Shown here piece by piece: positions 1 to 31,188 of a stretch of 64,000 nt of DNA (its first letter is position 1; each line of letters opens with the position of its first letter). The notes beneath the pieces were generated by a model. The model had not been told where the DNA came from and ran no database searches. It saw only the letters and a program-made list of their open reading frames with translations. Made by a program: the position numbers and the translations under genes. Location of the stretch: contig JAPQWV010000766.1 in assembly GCA_027422505.1 (NCBI GenBank), positions 1-64,000 on the forward strand. The letters are read 5' to 3'. Origin of the DNA: Craterostigma plantagineum (taxonomy: Eukaryota > Streptophyta > Magnoliopsida > Lamiales > Linderniaceae).

Positions 1-2476
1 GTGGTTGCAGCTTAGACTGATCTTCCACATCAGAAAAGATACTAGTAGGTTGCTGGTAGATTTTGACGTCCATGGAGAACGACGGAGGAATGATCAAGCT
101 GACAGTAACGAATTACTCCATATGCAAATCAAGGATGGAGGATTACCTTTATTGCAAAGACCTCCATGATCCAATCGAAAATGCAGGCAAGATGCCTGAA
201 GGCGAGAATGCTGACCTATGGAAGAAATTGCAAAGAAAAGACGTTAGGTGTGATCCGCCCATGGGTGGACATAAGCCTCTACAACCACGTCCGAAGACAG
301 ACCCCTACAAACTCTGGACAAAATTAGAGGGTATGTACGAGGTGACAAATGCGTTGAGCAAGGTATTCATGATGCGGAAACTCATGAATGTGAAGCTGAA
401 CAAGGGACGATCAGTTGCTGAACATCTGAATGACTTTGAAGGGCGGGTAACTCAACTCACAAGTGCCGGTCTAATCCTTGATGATGAGCTACAAGCATGT
501 CTACTACTGGGTTCTCTACCAGATAGTCGGGATACGTTGGTGGTATCGCTCACTAACTCGGCACCAAGCGGTAAAGTCACGATGGAGATGGTGAAAAATA
601 GACTCTACAATGAAGAGCTGCAACGAAAGGATGCTACCAATACCAATACGGGAAACCAGGCCCTTGTCACGGAAAATAGGGGTCGGAGAAAGAGTAGAGG
701 AACAAAAGGTTACGGCAAGTCAAAAGATAGATCCAAGTACAGGGAGATGACGAAGTGCTACCATCGTGGAAAAAACTGGCCACAAACAAAGAAACTGTAG
801 GCTTCTCAACAGAAAACAGAAACAAGATGATGACAAGAACACGTCTATGATCAACTCCAACGATCGAGGAGAGGTTACTCTGGTGAATGAAGCAGACTGC
901 TATCATGTTGCGGATGCAAGCACCGAATGGGTAATGGACTTTGGTGCCTCTTATCATTGTGTTCCAAGGCTTGAATACTTCTCGACATACAAGGCGGGAA
1001 ATTTTGGCAATACCAAGATGGGTAACCAAAGTGTTTCTAAAATAGTGGGGATCGGTGATCTGTATCCAGACGAGCGTAGGGTGCACATTACGGCTAAAAG
1101 ATATGTGATACATTCCAGACATGCGTCTCAACTTGATTTTTGTGAAGGTGCTGGACAAAAAGGATACTATAATGAGGTGGCGAATAGGAACTAGAAACTC
1201 ACCAATGGATCGTTGGTGGTAGCGAGAGGAAAGCTATGCTACTCGCTGTACAAGATACACGCAACGATGTGTGCTAACCAACTGAATGCTGTTGAAGATG
1301 TTGCTTCTCCAAATTTGTGGCACAGACGGCTGGCGGACGTAAGAGAGAATGGGTTGAATGTCTTGGCTAAAAAGTCCCTCATACCAGTAGCCAAGGAGAA
1401 AGCGCTGAACCCCTGCGATTATTGCTTATTTGGAAAGCAACATAGAGTTTCATTAGCGAAGAACTCAACCAGACGAATGAAGAAGTTGGAGTTGGTACAC
1501 TCTGATGTATGCGGACCCATGGAAGTCGAATCTCTTGGAGGCAGTAAATATTTTCTGACTTTTATTGATGATGCATCTCGTAAGACCTGTATATATCTGT
1601 TGCGGACGAAGGACCGGGTGTTCTATTATTTTAAGAAGTTCCATGCAATGGTGGAAAGGGAAACGGAAATGCCGCTTAAGTGTCTACGCACAGATAATGG
1701 TGGTGAATACATCTCTCGGGAGTTCAGAAATTATTCCACGAAGCAGGGCATTAGGCATGAGAAGAGACTTCCTGGCACTCCTCAGCAAAATGGTGTCGCG
1801 GAGAGAATGAACCGGACCATTATGGAGAGAGTCCGAGCGATGCTCAAGATGGCTAATCTATCTAAGTCATTTTGGGGGGAAGCTGTCAATACTGCAGTCT
1901 ATCTTATCAACCGACTACCTTCATCGGCGTTGGATTTCGATATACCAGAGATGGTGTGGACCGGTAGAGACATCTCATATTCGCATTTGAGATTGTTTGG
2001 CTGCAATGCGTTCATGCATGTGGTAAAGGAACAAAGATCGGAGCTCGATGATAAATAGAATCCTTGAATTTTTGTTGGGTACGGAGACAAGGAGTTCGGC
2101 TACAGACTTTGGGATCAAAAGAAGAAGAAGACTGTTCGAAGTCGCGATGTAGTATTCCATGAGCATGAGACCATGGGCGACTCAAAGGTGGATGCGGCGA
2201 AATCCACAGGTGGCGGTGTAGAAAATTATACACCAGTCAGTATTCCATACGACGGTGCCACGGAGGAAGGAATGCAACAATCAGAACCTGAACCAGAACA
2301 GCCAACCATTGATGATTATGAACCTGTTGTAGATGAACACACTGAAGATACTGAGCAGGGGGAGCCTTTAGATGTGCAAGAAGCAGTTGAACCTCAGTTG
2401 AGAAGGTCAACTAGGGAACGCCAACCATCTACGAGGTATCCGAGTTCTGATTATATTTTGATTACCGACGAGGGGG
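1..2476 (+). mobile_element. Ty1/Copia (Tork/TNT1-like) element, 5' part, decayed
   Basis: The window opens inside a copia element: a 62-base leader is followed by gag, a zinc knuckle, protease and integrase in the copia order, all on the plus strand. No 5' LTR or primer site is visible, so the element begins left of the window. It is cut at 2476 by a Gypsy insertion and resumes after 13693, where the RT frame continues. Several frameshifts and stops show that it is dead. The gag and integrase wording resembles the TNT1-94-type proteins common in eudicots; the clade call is from memory of the family, not a search. Confidence 0.85.
63..1194 (+). pseudogene. copia gag, CCHC knuckle and protease, frameshifted
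   Basis: Gag would form the cytoplasmic virus-like particle. The opening MENDGGMIKLTVTNYS and the later TDPYKLWTKLEGMYE block are typical of copia UBN2-type gag. Between about 240 and 295 the frame is wrong for roughly 16 codons; the expected gag wording is in another frame, which implies two compensating indels. The zinc knuckle is split by a frameshift near 770: the first Cys is in one frame and the GHKQRNC half is in the next. The protease motif reads DFGAS where copia has DSGAS or DTGAS, so the residue next to the catalytic Asp is changed. Dead as read. Confidence 0.8.
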
Positions 2477-2481
2477 TGTAG
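1213..2481 (+). pseudogene. copia pre-integrase and integrase, interrupted
   Basis: Integrase joins the cDNA to host DNA. The pre-integrase zinc motif is partly visible (WHRRLADVRENG, then CDYCLFGKQH). The catalytic triad is readable: Asp in HSDVCGP, Asp in RTDNGGEY and Glu in NGVAERMNR. The frame stops at 2056-2058 (TAG), with another stop a few codons later. The integrase C-terminal wording (VGYGDKEFGYRLWD) then continues without a start. The acidic linker before RT (about 2170-2470) is present and ends at the Gypsy insertion; its apparent stop at 2479 is supplied by the inserted LTR. Homology is clear but the protein is not functional. Confidence 0.85.
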
Positions 2482-3234
2482 GACCCCGGTCCCTGAAAAT
2501 TAGGCCGGCCAATAAATTATGTGTATGACTAACGTGATTTTGTGTTAATTACGTATATGTTCTACTTTTACGTGGATTCATGAAATTTCATGCTCGTGAT
2601 TTTGTGAGAATTACGTGCGATTACGGGACGATGAATACGTACTATGACGATCCCTAAATTAGGTGAGTGATTTTCGAAGATAATGGCTAATGATAGTCAA
2701 GTGAGGGTTGGGCTAGGAATTTAATTATTATTGGGCTCTAAATTAATAATAGGCCCAAAATTACAAGAAATCAAATTGGGAGACAACTCCCCTAAAACAA
2801 GTAAGAGCCCACGCCACTTTGTGCCTTGTCTACCAAAAGCCATAGAAGATATCTACCTAAAAACAACTCAATACACTTTAACCTCAAAAGAAAACCCACG
2901 AAAGAAGAAACCAAGAAAAAGTCGAAGCAAGAAAAAGGAAAAGAGAAGAAGCCGAGCCAAATTGAACCGAGAAGCTTGAGAATTCGAAGTTGGTAAGTAA
3001 AACCCCCTCCTTAAGTTCTAAATTCTTTACTTTAGGTGTAGTTGAAGAGCATTAATGGCATTAAAAGCAAACGGTTGGAGAAAACGCGAGAAACCCTAAA
3101 AAGCCGAGCTAGGGTCATAATAAGGGTCTCGGTAGGAATAAATGTGAAGTTAAGTAGCTTAGTATGTGATTTAGAGCTCATGATTCTAGGAAGAACAAGT
3201 TATGAAACGAATTCGAGGGAGAAGAACGACGGGA

Positions 3235-4270
3235 AATCGAAGAAGATGATGAAAATGTCGAAGCAAATGATAGATGTCGAATGCTTGAAATGTCGACATA
3301 ACATGCATATCGACATCTCAATAAATGTCGAGACACCATGTGAATATCATGTCGACAATTTCTAATGAAAATGTCGAAACACAAAGTCGGATATTGTTAA
3401 GAAAAGGTCGATATAAAATGCGTAAGACTCGACATCTTTATGTAGATAAATGTCAAAGGATGATGAATGGCGATATTAAAGTCGGCCTTCAAAATGTCGA
3501 GATCTTAAATCATGTGAGATGTCGAGGCCCATACAAGCCTCATGTCGACATTTTTAATGAAAAATATCGAAACCCTACTAAAGAGAAAATGTCGGGCTAA
3601 GCATGAAATGTCGAAGTAACCTCCATATCGACATCTTATAAATGTCGAAGCCTATGTGAGAATTTATGTCGACATTCCCAAAGATAAATGTCGAGTGGTA
3701 GATGTAAAAAGTCGAGAGAAAAGGAATGAAAGTGTCGAGTTAAATGTCGACAATAAAATCGAGATGCAACGTCTAGATAAAATAGCTAAAAATGTCGAGC
3801 TTCATAAACATGTCGAGACCCTAATTGAGTTAAATGTCGAATCATTCTATAAGGAATAAAAATGCCGAGTTCTTTCACTTAGACGAAATGTCGAGTGGAA
3901 TCAAGTATAAAATGTCGAATCCTTTTAGAATGATATCGAGATCTTTACAATCATAATGTCGAGATCTTCAAATCGTTAAATGTCGAGTTCATACACACAA
4001 AAATATCGGAACCTCCTAACCAGATAAATGTCGAATGAAAGGTATAAATGCCAAGTTGAATACCGAGAGGAAAAGAGATGAAAATGTCGAGTCAAATGTC
4101 GACAAAGTCGAGATCGATGTCGAGTAGAATTAAGTAGAAAATGTCGAGGTCTCAAATCATGTAAATGTCGAGACCTTATAACCGAATAAAAGATCGAGAA
4201 CTAACAAAATGTCCAAATCTTAAACATCATGCCGAAGCATATCTCGACATTGGTATATCATAAGTAATCT
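3235..4270 (+). repeat. TGTCGA-motif array inside the 5' LTR
   Basis: About 1 kb in which the short motif AAATGTCGA (often AATGTCGAG) recurs several dozen times at irregular spacing of roughly 15-40 bases. Some copies are the self-complementary ATGTCGACAT (3293, 3349, 3540 and 3667 area). Copies occur in both orientations, mostly forward. The spacers differ from each other, so this is not a simple tandem satellite. The same array is present in the 3' LTR. The short ORFs that cross it are by-products of the repeat. Confidence 0.9.
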
Positions 4271-4726
4271 CGGAAACACATAGCGAGATCTTTACGAACA
4301 ATATTAAGGAAAATATTTCAACACTTTTCAAAAACATAACTAACCAATATTTAGATAATGTACTGATATAATAATTTTATGATAAAGGTCGTACGTTAGG
4401 AGCAAACGGGGAAAATACTAACTTCGCCCGGACGACAGGTAAGTAGAAATTCAACTACGACACGTAACTTGCCTGCGTCCAATTATGTGAATTACGTGCT
4501 CGTGTATCTTCTATGAAATGCGTACGTATGATAGGATTTAATTCTATGCATGATAGCATGATCTGCATATGTATATGAGCATAACATGAGCACTTGCAAG
4601 CATGAGTAGTATGTAAGGAGCGAGGTATGAGCGTGCATAAGATCGCCTGTGTGCGATGTAAATTCGCCGATATTGGCGTTTGTGTCGACTCGAACGAAGA
4701 GTCACGGCTTCCCTTATGCAGCCTTT

Positions 4727-4945
4727 AAGGCCTGAATAAGAGGCTGGGGACATACCCCGTACGCTAAGGCCTGAATAAGAGGCTGGGTAAATACCCCGTA
4801 CGACAAGGCCTGAATAAGAGGCAGGGTAAATACCCCGTACGATAAGGCCTGAATAAGAGGCTGGGTAAATACCCCGTACGATAAGGCCTGAATAAGAGGC
4901 TGGGAAAGAACCCCGTATGATAAGACGAAATAAGAGGCTGGGGAA
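4727..4945 (+). repeat. 39-base tandem repeat in the 5' LTR
   Basis: Copies start at 4727, 4766, 4805, 4844 and 4883, with a degenerate sixth at 4922. Each begins AAGGCCTGAATAAGAGGC and ends near CCCCGTACG. The period is exactly 39 bases, a multiple of three, which creates a long open frame on the minus strand that I do not regard as a gene. The block lies about 540 bases before the LTR end, probably in the transcribed part of the LTR. Confidence 0.95.
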
Positions 4946-5486
4946 ATGAAAGCCGAGGGCCCGTAAGAAATAAGAGTATAAGAAAAAGAGTAAGGGCGAA
5001 AGAAAAGAGTACGAGTATGAGAAAAAGAGTACGAGCGTTAGGAAACGACGACGTGGATTGTCGTTCGTTAGGACACGTGCATTCATGCATAATTTCTGCT
5101 TACTGAGCCTCGGTGGCTCATTATTTATGTTACGTGTTGTAGGTACTGACGATCACGGTACGTGATCTGACTTTTATGCAAGGCCGATCTTTTGACGCAG
5201 TACGACCGCTTTTGAGGTGGGAGTGTGTGTATGGATGACGACCTGTGAAGGCCGGGCGCATAGGGAGCTTTTGGCTGCACACACACACGTACACTTGTAT
5301 TTTGTAGACAAGGGCATGATGATGTCGAACGATGTAAAACATTCTTTTGACATGTATATAAGATTTTCGCATGTATTTTAAAAATGAAAAATTTTATTCG
5401 CATTTTTACGTATCCTCACAATACCAAAGCGTTAACATCTAGAATTAGAACGGAATACGAGGGCGGGACGACGGGTCCTGACAGAG

Positions 5487-5498
5487 TGGTATCAGAGC
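5487..5498 (+). other. Primer binding site, initiator tRNA-Met
   Basis: TGGTATCAGAGC lies three bases after the LTR end. It is the standard plant complement to the 3' end of initiator tRNA-Met and would prime minus-strand cDNA synthesis. Confidence 0.95.
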
Positions 5499-5706
5499 AC
5501 AACCTCTCACAGTACGGTGCTGGTTCGGGGACGAACCAGGCGGAAGCTGGTGGGCATGTGACGCCCGGGGCCGACGAGGGCGGGGAGTGATCGCCGGTGC
5601 CAAAGAGATGCACGGACAAGGAGCGGCTCCTGGCAGGCTTCTAGGCGAAGGGGTACATGAACGAACCGATCCGACACCCGAATGAGAGGGGATCCTGAGA
5701 CTGACA

Positions 5707-6023
5707 ATGTATGGGCATGTCAGGCTAAGAATCGTATAAAAGAATTGATAGTACTACTCATATCACCAAGGTCGACCTACCTTTTCGGGAGTCCATCCGA
5801 AAGAACTTCGAAGTTAAGCGTGCTTGACTTGAAGCAATCTTAGGATGGGTGACCCCCTGGGAAGTTTGCCCAGGGTGCGTGTGAGCGAGGACGAAGCACG
5901 CTGAAAGGTTAATTGGTGGTACAGTGGGGCCAGACTATCAGTCGGAGTGTGGTGGGCCCAACCCCACAGGTCTCGGTAGGGACGGATGCTACAGTGACAC
6001 CCGATATGGGACGGGATGTTACA
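5707..6023 (+). repeat. Cassandra-like LTR segment inside the Gypsy leader
   Basis: The segment starts near TGTATGGGCATG, carries a 5S-rRNA-like block in its middle, then a GGGCCC-rich stretch, and ends GGGATGTTACA two bases before a second tRNA-Met primer site. This order matches the published architecture of Cassandra TRIM elements, whose LTRs carry 5S rRNA sequence. The 3' boundary is clear. The 5' boundary is a guess. No flanking target duplication was found. Confidence 0.65.
5770..5890 (+). ncRNA. 5S-rRNA-derived sequence with pol III internal promoter boxes
   Basis: The block GAAGTTAAGCGTGCTTG (A-box region, near 5810-5826) followed by AGGATGGGTGACC and CTGGGAAGT (C-box region, 5842-5865) matches plant 5S rRNA in order and spacing. 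The flanks diverge from 5S: the normal 5' end and the GTGTTGCA-type 3' end are missing. It is therefore a derived copy, not a functional 5S gene. In Cassandra such blocks can keep pol III promoter activity; whether this one does is unknown. Confidence 0.75.
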
Positions 6024-6025
6024 GG

Positions 6026-6037
6026 TGGTATCAGAGC
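6026..6037 (+). other. Second tRNA-Met primer-site sequence in the leader
   Basis: A second exact TGGTATCAGAGC, two bases after an LTR-like GATGTTACA end. Its place supports the view that the preceding segment is an LTR. It may be a relic rather than the priming site used by the Tekay element. Confidence 0.8.
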
Positions 6038-6377
6038 TTCGGTCACAGGTCCTGCAGACTGTCCATACACACACACTCAAAAGCGGAAGCGGCCTTGCTT
6101 GTAAGTACGATGTTATGTGAATTTATTGTATGGTTTGATTTATTGGCCATAGGAATTATCAGGAGGTAGGTTGAGAAAAAGGTAAGACTTAGAGGAGAAG
6201 GAAGCAGGGAATCTGATCAGGGTAGGGACACTAATAACCCCCCTGACAGTCTGGGATGCTACCATCCTGCAGCTGACTGAACTGGTCCGGCAACAATCGG
6301 CCCAGATTCAGCAGCTGATCCAGCAAAATGCTGGTGGGCAACCAGCCAACTTACCTCCCCCACCGGAACGAATTGAG

Positions 6378-7886
6378 ATGATCGGGGAGAGGTTCAGAAA
6401 GCTCAATCCTCCACTGTTCGAGGATGCTGCAGACCCTACCTCCGCTGAAGACTGGCTAAGGACGCTGGAGAACATGTTCCAGCATAGCCGCACACCCGAA
6501 GCGGAAAAGGTCATGTGCGCTGCCTACCTGCTAAGGGGGAGCGCCGGACACTGGTGGGACACCGTCTCAGCTATCAAAAATCCACTAACGATGAGTTGGG
6601 ATCGGTTTAAGGAGATTTTCCGAGGAAAGTACTACACCGCCCCGGTCAGGGCCCAAAGGATGAACGAATTCATCAACCTCCGCCAAGGAGCCATGACAGT
6701 GGCGGAGTACATCAGGAAGTTCGAGCAACTTTCAAGGTTCGCTGCTCATATGGTCAGCACAGACGCGCTCAAGGTCGAGCGGTTCATGGAAGGACTGAAG
6801 CCCGAGTTATATCGGGATGTAAGTATGGCGGGTGTGCAAGGGGCCACGTATGCACAAGTGGCTGAGAGAGCGCTCGTGGCGGAGCAGGCCGAGTCTAGAA
6901 TAGCTCGCGCCCAAGAAGCTAAGCGTAAATTCGCACAAGGGCCGCAGGGGAGCGGAAGTAATCCGAAACGGCAATTCGTGGCCCAGGAAGGGAAACAGGG
7001 GCCTCAATATCGACCTGGACCACCCCCACAGTTCAAGCCCAACCAGGGTAGGCCCCAGCTGGATCTACCCGTATGCCCGAAATGCGCACGGAGACACCCG
7101 GGAGTCTGCAACTCCCAGAACGCCGTTTGCTACAAGTGTGGCAAGACGGGCCATTATTCGAGGGCATGTCCGGAAGATGGATCCGGAAGCCAAGCTAGGA
7201 ACCCGATAGAACCTCCAAGGGTACCGGCCAGGGTCTACACCATAACCTCCGAAGAAGCAGAAAATAACCCGGCCGTGGTGACAGGTACCCTCCTCGTTTA
7301 CCAGACCCCCACATGCATACTAGTCGACTCAGGAGCGACCCATTCGTTCGCGTCTACTAAGTATGTCGCGAGAGTAGGAGTCACGCCTCACCGAGCTGAG
7401 TGCGAATTTAGGGTAACAGTTCCGAACGGGAATTCCACCCAAACCAATCAGGTCTTACGGGATTGTCCAATAGTAATCGGGGACAAGGAACTGCCCACAG
7501 ACCTCATAATAATTCCCATGAATGATTATGAGGTAATCCTTGGAATGGATTGGCTATCAAAGTACGGAGCTGTCATAGACTGCCACCGCAAGATAGTCAC
7601 ACTCAACGTAGACGGAGATGAACCCCTTAAGTTCGTAGGAACTAGTAAAGGGACCATGATCTCCAGAATATCAGCGTTGAAAGCTCAGCGACTGATCAAA
7701 TCGGGGTGTGAAGCCTATCTGGTATTCGCTATCAAGTCGGAAGAGACCGCCTCCCCGAAACTCGAGGAAGTACCAATAGTTAAGGACTTCCCCGACGTAT
7801 TTCCCGAAGAGTTACCGGGACTACCCGCCCGAACGGGAAATAGAGTTCGTTATAGATCTGGTACCTGGAGCGGCACCAGTATCTAA
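6378..7886 (+). CDS. Gypsy gag-protease
   Basis: Gag assembles the particle and protease matures the polyprotein. The retrotransposon gag domain covers about residues 15-145 ([19 protein letters not shown], then GHWWDTVSA). Next come a Gln-rich linker and a CX2CX4HX4C zinc knuckle, [14 protein letters not shown], at 7129-7170, preceded by a second Cys cluster, [12 protein letters not shown]. The aspartic protease active site is VDSGATHSF at about 7324-7350, with VILGMDWL downstream. The frame ends early at 7886: one extra C in the run near 7826 shifts the frame, and the pol reading continues in the frame that opens just after. Start chosen at the first Met of the open frame; homology extends upstream. 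Confidence 0.9.
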
Positions 7887-7914
7887 GACGCCCTATCGGC
7901 TAGCACCGACGGAG

Positions 7915-10644
7915 ATGAAGGAATTAAAGGATCAACTCGACGAACTCATGCAGAAGGAGTTCATACAGCCGAGTTTCTCTCCTTGGGGAGCGCCGGTGCT
8001 ATTCGTGAAAAAGAAAGACGGATCCATGAGATTATGCATAGACTACAGGGAGTTGAACAAGTTGACGATCAAGAACAAGTACCCACTCCCTAGAATAGAC
8101 GATCTATTCGATCAACTGCAAGGTGCAACGGTCTTCTCCAAGATCGACTTAAGATCGGGCTATCACCAACTAAGGATCCGGAAAGAAGACGTCCCGAAGA
8201 CGGCCTTTAGTACCCGTTATGGCCACTACGAATTTCTGGTGATGCCATTCGGGTTGACTAATGCGCCCGCAGCCTTTATGGACTTAATGAACCGGGTGTT
8301 CAAGCCATATTTAGATAGGTTTGTCATCATTTTCATTGATGACATCTTAATCTACTCAAAGACGAAGGAGGAGCACGAAGAACACCTGAGAACAGTTCTA
8401 GGAATACTACGGGAGAAGCAACTATACGCCAAGTTCAAGAAGTGCGAATTTTGGCTTGACCAAGTCGCCTTCTTGGGGCATATAGTGTCAGAAGAAGGAA
8501 TTTCTGTGGACCCGAAGAAGATAGAAGCTATTAGCAATTGGCCCAGGCCGACGAACGTGACGGAAATACGAAGCTTCCTCGGTCTGGCAGGATACTATAG
8601 GAAGTTCATAAAGGACTTCTCGAAGATAGCATCGACACTGACGAGGCTGACCAAGAAGAATACGCCTTTTCAGTGGACCGTAGAATGTGAACGGAGCTTC
8701 CAAGAGCTGAAGGAAAGGCTTACGACGGCCCCAGTTCTCACAATCCCATCGGGAACAGGAGGGTTTACCGTTTATAGCGATGCGTCGAAGAACGGGTTAG
8801 GGTGTGTGCTAATGCAGAACGGGAATGTAGTAGCATACGCCTCTCGTCAACTGAAGGAGTACGAGAAAAATTACCCGACGCACGACTTAGAATTGGCGGC
8901 AGTGGTCTTTGCTCTCAAAATTTGGAGGCATTACCTCTATGGAGAGCGGTGTGAGATATACACCGACCATAAGAGCCTCAAATACTTCTTTACGCAAAAG
9001 GAGTTAAATATGAGGCAGAGGAGGTGGTTAGAGTTAGTTAAGGATTATGACTGCGTAATCAACTACCACCCAGGCAAGGCGAACATAGTAGCCGATGCCT
9101 TAAGTCGAAAAGCAGTCAGTGCAGAACTACAACTGCTGGAAGTAGCTGTCGTAAGGTTAGGCGAAGTTGAGGCGCAACTAGCAGCCTTAACTTTGCAACC
9201 AACACTGCTGGAGCAGATCAAGACAGCGCAAGGAGCAGACGAGTTATATGTAAAAATTAAGGAGGCACAACCGGAGCAAACCACTGGAAACCTTATGATA
9301 CGGGAAGACGAACGATTATACTTCAAAAACCGGGTGTACGTGCCAGACGATGCCGAACTACGACGGCTAATAATGACGGAAGCACACGCTACAGCATACT
9401 CGGTACATCCAGGAGCAACGAAGATGTACAGAGACTTAAAGAAAAACTACTGGTGGCCGGGCATGAAAAAGGATATCGCGACCTTCGTGGGTCAATGCCT
9501 GACGTGCCAGCAGATTAAAGCCGAGCATCAACGGCCGGCAGGAACCCTACAACCGTTACCCATTCCGGAATGGAAATGGGATAACATTACCATGGACTTC
9601 GTAGTAGGACTGCCTAGAAATGCGAAAGGGCACGACGCGATTTGGGTAATCGTTGACCGACTAACCAAGTCTGCCCATTTCCTACCAATAAGTACGACGT
9701 ATTCCATGGAACGATACGCGGAGCTCTATATCCAAGAAATAGTGCGACTGCACGGCGTTCCATCGTCGATAGTCTCGGATCGCGACTCCAGATTTCTATC
9801 GAAATTCTGGACTAGCTTACAAAAGGCGATGGGAACCAGGCTATCTTTTAGTACCGCCTACCATCCACAGACGGATGGTCAATCCGAGCGAACCATTCAG
9901 ACGCTGGAGGATATGCTCCGAGCGTGCGTACTCGATTTCAAAGGAGATTGGAGTAGGTACCTTCCACTAATCGAATTCTCGTACAACAATAGCTACCACG
10001 TCACAATCGGGATGGCACCGTACGAAGCACTATACGGGCGTAGGTGCAGATCCCCAGTACATTGGGACGAGGTCGGTGAACGGACAATGTTAGGCCCCGA
10101 CATCGTACGAGAAATGACGGAAGCCATTTCTATGATACGAGAAAGAATGAGAACGGCACAAAGTCGACAGAAGAGCTACGCAGATCGAAGACGTCGACCG
10201 CTGGAATTTGAAGAAGGAGACATGGTGTTTGTAAAAGTATCGCCAATGAAGGGCGTGAAGAGGTTTGGGAAGAAAGGGAAGTTAAGCCCTAGGTACATAG
10301 GACCCTTTGGGATACTAAAAAGGGTAGGCGAGGTAGCATACCAGTTGGAGCTGCCTGCGTCACTAGCGCAAGTGCACGACGTGTTCCACGTCTCGACACT
10401 GCGGAAATACCTAGCTGACCCAAACCACGTGCTAGGAAACGAATCCCTACATCAACAATTGAAGCCGGATCTAAGTTACGAAGAGATCCCGGTGGAGATA
10501 TTGATGTACGAGACTAAGAAGCTTAGGAATAAGGATATTCCTTTAGTGAAAGTACTGTGGCGAAATCAGTCCACAGAAGAAGCCACATGGGAACGGGAGG
10601 ACGAAATCAGAATTCGTTATCCCGAGTTGTTTCACACAGGCTGA
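7915..10644 (+). CDS. Gypsy pol: RT, RNase H, integrase, chromodomain-like tail
   Basis: The open frame of 909 residues begins at the first Met, but pol homology starts upstream at about 7830, directly after the frameshift in the protease-RT region. RT has the catalytic [10 protein letters not shown] at 8330-8360. RNase H has [10 protein letters not shown] near 8775 and TDHKSLKYF near 8960. Integrase has the HHCC zinc region ([13 protein letters not shown] to CLTC, about 9403-9510), the first Asp in TMDFVVGLP, the second in VSDRDSRF and Glu in DGQSERTIQ. The C-terminus ends in a chromodomain-like segment typical of Tekay chromoviruses, thought to guide integration to heterochromatin. No internal stop. 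All catalytic residues that I can place are intact. Confidence 0.95.
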
Positions 10645-10679: not shown

Positions 10680-13600
10680 TGTAGGACCCCGGTCCCTGAA
10701 AATTAGGTCGGCCAATAAATTATGTGTATGACTAACGTGATTTTGTGTTAATTACGTATATGTTCTACTTTTACGTGGATTCATGAAATTTCATGCTCGT
10801 GATTTTGTGAGAATTACGTGCGATTACGGGACGATGAATACGTACTATGACGATCCCTAAATTAGGTGAGTGATTTTCGAAGATAATGGCTAATGATAGT
10901 CAAGTGAGGGTTGGGCTAGGAATTTAATTATTATTGGGCTCTAAATTAATAATAGGCCCAAAATTACAAGAAATCAAATTGGGAGACAACTCCCCTAAAA
11001 CAAGTAAGAGCCCACGCCACTTTGTGCCTTGTCTACCAAAAGCCATAGAAGATATCTACCTAAAAACAACTCAATACACTTTAACCTCAAAAGAAAACCC
11101 ACGAAAGAAGAAACCAAGAAAAAGTCGAAGCAAGAAAAAGGAAAAGAGAAGAAGCCGAGCCAAATTGAACCGAGAAGCTTGAGAATTCGAAGTTGGTAAG
11201 TAAAACCCCCTCCTTAAGTTCTAAATTCTTTACTTTAGGTGTAGTTGAAGAGCATTAATGGCATTAAAAGCAAACGGTTGGAGAAAAACGCGAGAAACCC
11301 TAAAAAGCCGAGCTAGGGTCATAATAAGGGTCTCGGTAGGAATAAATGTGAAGTTAAGTAGCTTAGTATGTGATTTAGAGCTCATGATTCTAGGAAGAAC
11401 AAGTTATGAAACGAATTCGAGGGAGAAGAACGACGGGAAATCGAAGAAGATGATGAAAATGTCGAAGCAAATGATAGATGTCGAATGCTTGAAATGTCGA
11501 CATAACATGCATATCGACATCTCAATAAATGTCGAGACACCATGTGAATATCATGTCGACAATTTCTAATGAAAATGTCGAAACACAAAGTCGGATATTG
11601 TTAAGAAAAGGTCGATATAAAATGCGTAAGACTCGACATCTTTATGTAGATAAATGTCGAAAGGATGATGAATGGCGATATTAAAGTCGGCCTTCAAAAT
11701 GTCGAGATCTTAAATCATGTGAGATGTCGAGGCCCATACAAGCCTCATGTCGACATTTTTAATGAAAAATATCGAAACCCTACTAAAGAGAAAATGTCGG
11801 GCTAAGCATGAAATGTCGAAGTAACCTCCATATCGACATCTTATAAATGTCGAAGCCTATGTGAGAATTTATGTCGACATTCCCAAAGATAAATGTCGAG
11901 TGGTAGATGTAAAAAGTCGAGAGAAAAGGAATGAAAGTGTCGAGTTAAATGTCGACAATAAAATCGAGATGCAACGTCTAGATAAAATAGCTAAAAATGT
12001 CGAGCTTCATAAACATGTCGAGACCCTAATTGAGTTAAATGTCGAATCATTCTATAAGGAATAAAAATGCCGAGTTCTTTCACTTAGACGAAATGTCGAG
12101 TGGAATCAAGTATAAAATGTCGAATCCTTTTAGAATGATATCGAGATCTTTACAATCATAATGTCGAGATCTTCAAATCGTTAAATGTCGAGTTCATACA
12201 CACAAAAATATCGGAACCTCCTAACCAGATAAATGTCGAATGAAAGGTATAAATGCCAAGTTGAATACCGAGAGGAAAAGAGATGAAAATGTCGAGTCAA
12301 ATGTCGACAAAGTCGAGATCGATGTCGAGTAGAATTAAGTAGAAAATGTCGAGGTCTCAAATCATGTAAATGTCGAGACCTTATAACCGAATAAAAGATC
12401 GAGAACTAACAAAATGTCCAAATCTTAAACATCATGCCGAAGCATATCTCGACATTGGTATATCATAAGTAATCTCGGAAACACATAGCGAGATCTTTAC
12501 GAACAATATTAAGGAAAATATTTCAACACTTTTCAAAAACATAACTAACCAATATTTAGATAATGTACTGATATAATAATTTTATGATAAAGGTCGTACG
12601 TTAGGAGCAAACGGGGAAAATACTAACTTCGCCCGGACGACAGGTAAGTAGAAATTCAACTACGACACGTAACTTGCCTGCGTCCAATTATGTGAATTAC
12701 GTGCTCGTGTATCTTCTATGAAATGCGTACGTATGATAGGATTTAATTCTATGCATGATAGCATGATCTGCATATGTATATGAGCATAACATGAGCACTT
12801 GCAAGCATGAGTAGTATGTAAGGAGCGAGGTATGAGCGTGCATAAGATCGCCTGTGTGCGATGTAAATTCGCCGATATTGGCGTTTGTGTCGACTCGAAC
12901 GAAGAGTCACGGCTTCCCTTATGCAGCCTTTAAGGCCTGAATAAGAGGCTGGGGACATACCCCGTACGCTAAGGCCTGAATAAGAGGCTGGGTAAATACC
13001 CCGTACGACAAGGCCTGAATAAGAGGCAGGGTAAATACCCCGTACGATAAGGCCTGAATAAGAGGCTGGGTAAATACCCCGTACGATAAGGCCTGAATAA
13101 GAGGCTGGGAAAGAACCCCGTATGATAAGACGAAATAAGAGGCTGGGGAAATGAAAGCCGAGGGCCCGTAAGAAATAAGAGTATAAGAAAAAGAGTAAGG
13201 GCGAAAGAAAAGAGTACGAGTATGAGAAAAAGAGTACGAGCGTTAGGAAACGACGACGTGGATTGTCGTTCGTTAGGACACGTGCATTCATGCATAATTT
13301 CTGCTTACTGAGCCTCGGTGGCTCATTATTTATGTTACGTGTTGTAGGTACTGACGATCACGGTACGTGATCTGACTTTTATGCAAGGCCGATCTTTTGA
13401 CGCAGTACGACCGCTTTTGAGGTGGGAGTGTGTGTATGGATGACGACCTGTGAAGGCCGGGCGCATAGGGAGCTTTTGGCTGCACACACACACGTACACT
13501 TGTATTTTGTAGACAAGGGCATGATGATGTCGAACGATGTAAAACATTCTTTTGACATGTATATAAGATTTTCGCATGTATTTTAAAAATGAAAAATTTT

Positions 13601-13688
13601 ATTCGCATTTTTACGTATCCTCACAATACCAAAGCATTAACATCTAGAATTAGAACGGAATACGAGGGCGGGACGACGGGTCCTGACA
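10680..13688 (+). repeat. 3' LTR of the Tekay-type element
   Basis: Near-identical copy of 2477-5483, two bases longer. It repeats the TGTCGA array (about 11439-12475) and the 39-base tandem block (about 12932-13150). It ends CCTGACA and is followed by the GGGGG target duplication. Confidence 0.95.
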
Positions 13689-13693
13689 GGGGG

Positions 13694-31176: not shown

Positions 31177-31188
31177 GCTCTGATACCA
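31177..31188 (-). other. Primer binding site, tRNA-Met, of the Sirevirus-like element
   Basis: The minus strand reads TGGTATCAGAGC two bases inside the 5' LTR boundary. Confidence 0.95.

Follow-up and report, generated by a model that had tools for sequence, protein, structure and literature searches.

Cassandra, which has been described as widespread in vascular plants, is a TRIM with a 5S promoter according to the accessible text of two studies (Kalendar 2020, PMC7215508; Maiwald 2024, PMC10853983). Its autonomous partners are called unknown in the accessible part of the former (Kalendar 2020, PMC7215508), and no indication of the responsible autonomous family is given in that of another study (Kojima 2024, PMC10886601). 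The latter source describes Helenus and Ajax, small non-autonomous LTR elements with Pol III-type LTRs whose partner is inferred from the primer-site region; in its accessible text they differ from the present case in that nesting in a helper is not described (Kojima 2024, PMC10886601). Of 289 TRIM subfamilies, 11 have been reported to possess larger relatives, of which four are putatively autonomous and one is a Copia element with a duplicated primer-site stretch, and Cassandra is not named among these 11 in the accessible text (Gao 2016, PMC4717578). OsajLTRA10, the putative autonomous Copia partner of the TRIM OsajRetroS10, is such a large relative and carries a duplicated 25-bp stretch that includes the primer site; the two have an LTR in common, and the TRIM derives from the large element according to the authors (Gao 2016, PMC4717578). 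Unlike in that pair, the LTRs at the locus reported here are unrelated, and a whole TRIM unit is nested between the primer sites. A literature search on Cassandra combined with Gypsy, Tekay, chimera or partner, covering titles, the starts of abstracts and few subscription papers, found this arrangement nowhere recognised, and double primer sites in leaders were not described in the literature that it reached.

The window, the 64-kb stretch of Craterostigma plantagineum DNA that was analysed, carries a full-length Ty3/Gypsy element with paired LTRs and a 5-bp target duplication, GGGGG (Table 1). The 3.0-kb LTRs differ by 2 substitutions and 2 gap positions across 3007 aligned columns. The preliminary description, made from the sequence of the window, had proposed a full-length, recent Gypsy insertion, and the near-identical LTR pair and the duplication confirm this. 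The domains occur in the order gag, protease, reverse transcriptase, RNase H, integrase and chromodomain, the gag-protease frame overlapping the pol frame. The rve match (27.6 bits) was below the Pfam cut-off of 32.6, and the Chromo match (22.3 bits, E = 1.2e-4) slightly missed the cut-off of 25.1. Since its frames encode gag through this weak chromodomain, the element is a chromovirus, putatively of the Tekay type, the label given in the preliminary description. It resembles Tekay-like Ty3/Gypsy chromoviruses in its gag, protease, reverse transcriptase, RNase H, integrase, chromodomain and long LTRs, and differs from them in its leader, which contains a foreign second LTR and has two primer sites. 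Both of its LTRs contain tandem repeats of ~39 bp (about 4726-4950 and 12931-13155; self-comparison). A Copia-type polyprotein-like stretch was seen by eye around or beside the chromovirus (1-2476 and 13694 onward), and a further TGGTATCAGAGC on the minus strand at 31177-31188 is possibly the primer site of another element.

Table 1. Features of the chromovirus and of the Cassandra block in its leader (positions in the window).
Feature	Position	Strand	Basis or remark
Left target duplication GGGGG	2472..2476	.	Read from LTR flanks
Chromovirus 5' LTR (TGTAGGACCCC...GGGTCCTGACA)	2477..5483	+	LTR pair comparison
Cassandra internal region, about 72 bp, including primer site 1 at 5487-5498	5484..5556	+	Comparison with free arrays
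Complete Cassandra LTR, 467 bp (TGTGACGCCC...GGGATGTTACA)	5557..6023	+	Free arrays start exactly there, with 5-bp duplications
5S-rRNA-like stretch	5750..5880	+	Rfam RF00001, 22.9 bits, below cut-off of 38; fold
Box A, AGTTAAGCGTGC	5812..5823	+	Exact, published Cassandra query
Box C, AGGATGGGTGACC	5842..5854	+	Exact, published Cassandra query
Primer site 2, identical to primer site 1	6026..6037	+	Exact 12-mer, TGGTATCAGAGC
Chromovirus own leader	6038..6377	+	Starts as directly after the PBS in a block-free copy (L041 versus L026)
Gag and protease open frame	6186..7883	+	ORFs, domain search
Reverse transcriptase, RNase H, integrase and chromodomain open frame	7780..10641	+	Frame differs from that of gag
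Chromovirus 3' LTR	10680..13688	+	LTR pair comparison
Right target duplication GGGGG	13689..13693	.	Read from LTR flanks

Within the leader, the block is bounded by primer site 1 (5487) and by primer site 2 (6026), the second exact copy of TGGTATCAGAGC that had been noticed previously, and comprises a Cassandra internal region and a whole Cassandra LTR (539 bp). The stretch 5484-5700 is 96-100% identical to free Cassandra arrays. In the preliminary description, the Cassandra part began at 5707. This position falls within the LTR, whose start is at 5557 since free copies begin there. With the internal region (5484-5556) included, the block amounts to a complete internal-plus-LTR unit, equal to the repeat of free Cassandra. 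The claim that a Cassandra LTR with its primer site lies inside the leader of a recent Gypsy element is upheld. The 5S boxes A and C are in the reported order ahead of the PBS, with exact matches at 5812 and 5842, and their spacing of 18 nt, with the PBS downstream, fits the published linked Cassandra query. On the plus strand, this linked query had one match in the 64-kb window (5812-6037) and none in any of 200 dinucleotide shuffles. As both 5S boxes are exact, the 5S similarity does not fall to background. An Rfam scan of the window at the gathering score yielded no match. The 5S-like RNA over 5757-5885 folds at z -4.29, equally good folds being found in none of 200 shuffles, and no unusual fold was detected in the short Cassandra internal region (z -0.59).

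The likeness to Cassandra, as the accessible literature describes it, lies in the 5S boxes A and C at the published spacing, in the PBS TGGTATCAGAGC and in tandem arrays that share LTRs; the difference is that here one internal-plus-LTR unit is located inside coding Gypsy elements. The leader block has one LTR only, where free copies in this genome have the two LTRs of a Cassandra element. The block is a captured Cassandra unit, not a complete Cassandra, and its carrier is a chromovirus with a second LTR module.

Free Cassandra was identified by comparing 5484-6377 with the window's own 1.7-Gb genome, the scoring of 40 of 5011 first-look candidates giving at least 89 matches. Many of the matches listed were tandem units covering about positions 3-554 of the query, with a period near 539 bp and 97-99% identity, and the 539-bp unit of the leader is the repeat unit of these free arrays. 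In the arrays that were fetched, the first unit begins at query position 74, with TGTGACGCCC, and adjoins a different flank. Tandem arrangement with common LTRs, as in Cassandra, was found in the free arrays L009-L013 and not in the leader. Target duplications of 5 bp, perfect at four sites and with 4 of 5 bases at one (C11), flank the free elements: ACGGT on contig C94, GAAGC on C21, GTGAT on C1200 and TGAAC on C598, the last also on C434, whose flanks equal those of C598. The free two-LTR copy on C1200 measures 1006 bp (467+72+467), longer than the 968 bp given for the largest Cassandra of a published data set in its accessible part (Maiwald 2024, PMC10853983). Genome-wide, 2481 Cassandra internal regions were found at up to 2 mismatches, 928 of the internal regions lying after a ATGTTACA-type Cassandra end (up to 1 mismatch). 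Counting carriers by subtraction failed because GTCGTTACA terminates not only one Gypsy LTR group but also a second subfamily of Cassandra.

The expectation that the block would recur at the same place in the leader was borne out by the search of this genome. Exact junctions of the gag-leader type, at which the primer site and TT come after a Cassandra LTR end, number 75 on many contigs, by a hand count of rows without mismatch; the 1310 rows at up to 2 mismatches, which may include ordinary Cassandra junctions, were not used. A backwards control pattern gave 0 junctions, even at up to 2 mismatches, and the scan of viral contigs for a junction of LTR end and primer site also gave 0. A Cassandra LTR stood ahead of a gag leader in 15 of 15 places examined among the 75. 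Of the eight exact junctions on contigs C1 and C2, four lie 517-520 bp downstream of an exact Cassandra internal region in the same orientation. At all five extra junctions, drawn from 44 exact places, the Cassandra LTR directly precedes the gag leader; the internal region is present in two, absent in two, where other sequence directly precedes the LTR start, and the LTR is truncated in one.

A single unit with an intact primer site 1 and a non-Cassandra LTR end upstream was read at 17 places (the window, C710, C129, C205, C4, C370, C188, C11, C406, C48, C789, C419, two on C1, C5, C1062 and C4:18.70M); at C58 and C5:9.79M, the unit is present and primer site 1 is damaged. The LTR ends of the carriers differ (GGGTCCTGACA, GGGTCATGACA, GGGGCGCCACA, GGGTCGTTACA, GGGTCGCTACA and GGGTCGCCACA). 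The leader holds a single unit flanked by two primer sites in no fewer than four Gypsy LTR groups that cannot be aligned with one another: the window type, C4, C11 with C406, and C188 with C48 and C789. A blastn comparison of the sequence ahead of primer site 1 (up to 2.2 kb) gave no match of 100 bp or more between groups; the copies on C1, C5, C419 and C58 have only short or partial stretches in common with one or another group. This recurrence between two primer sites in several LTR groups rules out a one-off insertion with its own target duplication. Target duplications were read at four full-length carriers (window, GGGGG; C710, GGTAA; C11, CCCGC; C789, GAGGT), and the LTR pairs of the window, C710, C11, C789 and C188 elements are 98.7-99.9% alike, the pair on C188 having 0 mismatches and 2 gap positions over 2714 columns.

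Contig C4 harbors two adjoining copies of one family, one with the Cassandra unit and one without. The block-free copy joins LTR, primer site and leader directly, and the aligned rest is 98-99% identical to its neighbor. The pair is compatible with either gain or loss of the unit. Leaders without the block were also found in L036 and in a more distant relative, L031. At L019 (C48) and L021 (C419), stretches of the LTR (201 and 307 bp, 99%) reappear within 4.5 kb and no gag match was obtained; for both reasons, these loci may be short non-autonomous carriers of the Cassandra unit. At L052 (C10) and L053 (C14), unrelated flank gives way directly to a Cassandra LTR, with the primer site and the gag leader after it; these are possibly elements that are themselves bounded by Cassandra LTRs.

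In two insertions, each flanked by a perfect 5-bp target duplication, a Gypsy LTR supplies one terminus and a Cassandra LTR the other. The insertion on C370 (contig positions 257495-266727) lies between two copies of GTTTC. On the left it terminates in an inverted chromovirus LTR U5 end, with TA where CA is expected, and on the right in a Cassandra U5, ahead of which come gag-pol, the element's own LTR, primer site 1 and the Cassandra internal region. The insertion on C1062 (13840-25160) is flanked by TCTAA and has a Cassandra U5 end on the left and a chromovirus U5 end on the right. When its flanks are joined with one TCTAA, they align without a gap at the join to another satellite stretch, corresponding to the empty site (97% over 304 columns). 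The main duplicated parts inside the two insertions are 99.5-99.9% alike, and the composite 3' end is present in both. The two ends are joined in a single integration event, so LTR ends of both kinds must have been accepted by one integrase, and it is strongly implied that the chromovirus integrase accepts Cassandra LTR ends too. An alternative priming site had been suggested previously for the leader. This suggestion gains support from the two insertions, which end exactly at the Cassandra LTR; priming at the second site would be the presumed route. Both insertions have an inverted 5' part and are therefore by-products, and the loci examined included no regular element flanked on either side by composite LTRs. 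At C65 and C804, two of the four hybrid-type loci, a Cassandra LTR is paired with a chromovirus LTR, and a target duplication was looked for and not found.

Two-U5 insertions with inverted parts were seen in both Cassandra and carriers, at C1062 (L027 and L034), C370 (L037 and L015), C1996 and C804 (L028 and L032). That on C1996 is a free Cassandra array (L009) with the duplication ATATC; a target duplication is thus present at three of these loci and absent at C804. A satellite array of about 217 bp surrounds the C1062 insertion (L033, L034; C1062:5000-30000).

The relationship between leader and free Cassandra was analyzed by identity and by phylogeny. Among 10 elements (45 pairs, which are not independent), gag amino-acid identity ranged from 51 to 99.7% versus 92 to 99% for the Cassandra LTR, with a Spearman coefficient of -0.008. 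The window and C205 elements are 96% alike in gag and 94% in the Cassandra LTR, the window and C370 elements 58% and 98%, and the sister elements C129 and C205 93% in both. In an IQ-TREE phylogeny of 47 near-full Cassandra LTRs (23 leader or hybrid and 24 free, shorter pieces and duplicate contexts being dropped), leader and free rows were mixed, and leader Cassandras as a single clade were rejected (p-AU 3.6e-33, an earlier tree having been inspected ahead of the test). Starred branches force at least 4 label changes in this tree and 5 in a 43-row tree. The labels were more clustered than shuffled ones (8 changes versus a mean of 16, with 0 of 500 shuffles as low), partly because array units are near-copies. 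The C11 carrier groups with the free array on C94, and the free copy L045 is joined by C205 and the two C1 carriers. Since leader copies do not form one clade and their identity does not follow gag identity, these results indicate repeated exchange with free Cassandra. What the tree shows is mixing, not the direction of exchange. The preliminary description had offered a chimera made by template switching or a family-wide feature. The block is indeed chimeric, with junctions at the primer site, and recurrent; single inheritance within a family did not hold, the unit having been acquired or exchanged repeatedly across several LTR families.

In the one genome from which all loci, counts and trees were obtained, chromoviruses probably co-package, reverse-transcribe and integrate Cassandra, leader chimeras having arisen repeatedly. 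Cassandra RNA would enter chromovirus particles, in which both RNAs would be reverse-transcribed together, and the polymerase would switch template at the common primer site, many times over. In the chimera, the Cassandra internal region and LTR stand between primer site 1, which follows the chromovirus LTR, and primer site 2, after which come the chromovirus leader and gag-pol. Priming at site 2 would copy the Cassandra LTR and the element's own LTR into a composite LTR consisting of the own LTR, primer site 1, the internal region and the Cassandra LTR, as at the 3' end of the C370 and C1062 insertions. Template-switch chimeras of LTR elements, made during reverse transcription, were reportedly described by Sabot and Schulman in 2007. 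Exchange between blocks that already exist could also come from chromosomal gene conversion.

It is unlikely that a single ancient capture was inherited by all descendant families, with selection, or conversion by free copies, maintaining the likeness of the block. The primer-site position of the junctions read, the 97% likeness of the block's first 217 bp where gag nucleotides are only 72% alike, and the clustering of labels on the tree agree with such a history, but the scatter of leader copies among free ones, the rejection of the single clade and the block-free copies of one family do not. Nor do C129 and C205, whose Cassandra LTRs are no closer than their gag sequences, C205 siding with the C1 carriers and L045. 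Purely chromosomal recombination at the shared primer site, in which Cassandra arrays and Gypsy leaders undergo ectopic crossing over or gene conversion and need no common particles, appears decidedly improbable. Although Cassandra arrays are common and conversion between 540-bp blocks could spread subfamilies, homology at the first junction is only about 12-17 bp, and the LTR pairs of carriers are nearly identical and their target duplications clean; moreover, chromosomal recombination alone does not yield the hybrid-ended insertions that duplicate TCTAA and GTTTC. Repeats pose difficulties for assembly, but an assembly artefact or a chance resemblance is scarcely credible in view of the exact junctions on many contigs, the empty backwards control, the Cassandra LTR before the gag leader at every junction place examined and the fitting target duplications.

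A further alternative concerns function and is compatible with the co-packaging of Cassandra by chromoviruses: the chances are about even that the unit, although part of a real chimera, is a neutral passenger useless to its carrier. On C4, a copy bearing the block and one lacking it lie side by side, and 17 ATG codons are present from 5484 through 6378, 11 of them between 5556 and 6016, so that gag translation should be burdened. Against this stand the recent moves of carriers in several families, as dated by their closely similar LTR pairs. As a speculation, a gag RNA start further down the leader would make sense. More tentatively than co-packaging itself, chromoviruses may act as helpers in which the leader unit provides the carrier with two alternative modules of primer site and LTR, the cDNA ending in either LTR, a single integrase serving both and parts still being swapped.

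In view of the hybrid ends, the strongly implied integrase acceptance and the presumed template sharing, these chromoviruses are likely to be the autonomous partner of Cassandra in this plant. Hybrid ends together with repeated capture at the primer site provide a direct, checkable candidate for the helper of Cassandra. Two-U5 inverted products could mark shared particles generally, and insertions whose two ends come from different elements offer a general route to the helpers of non-autonomous LTR elements.
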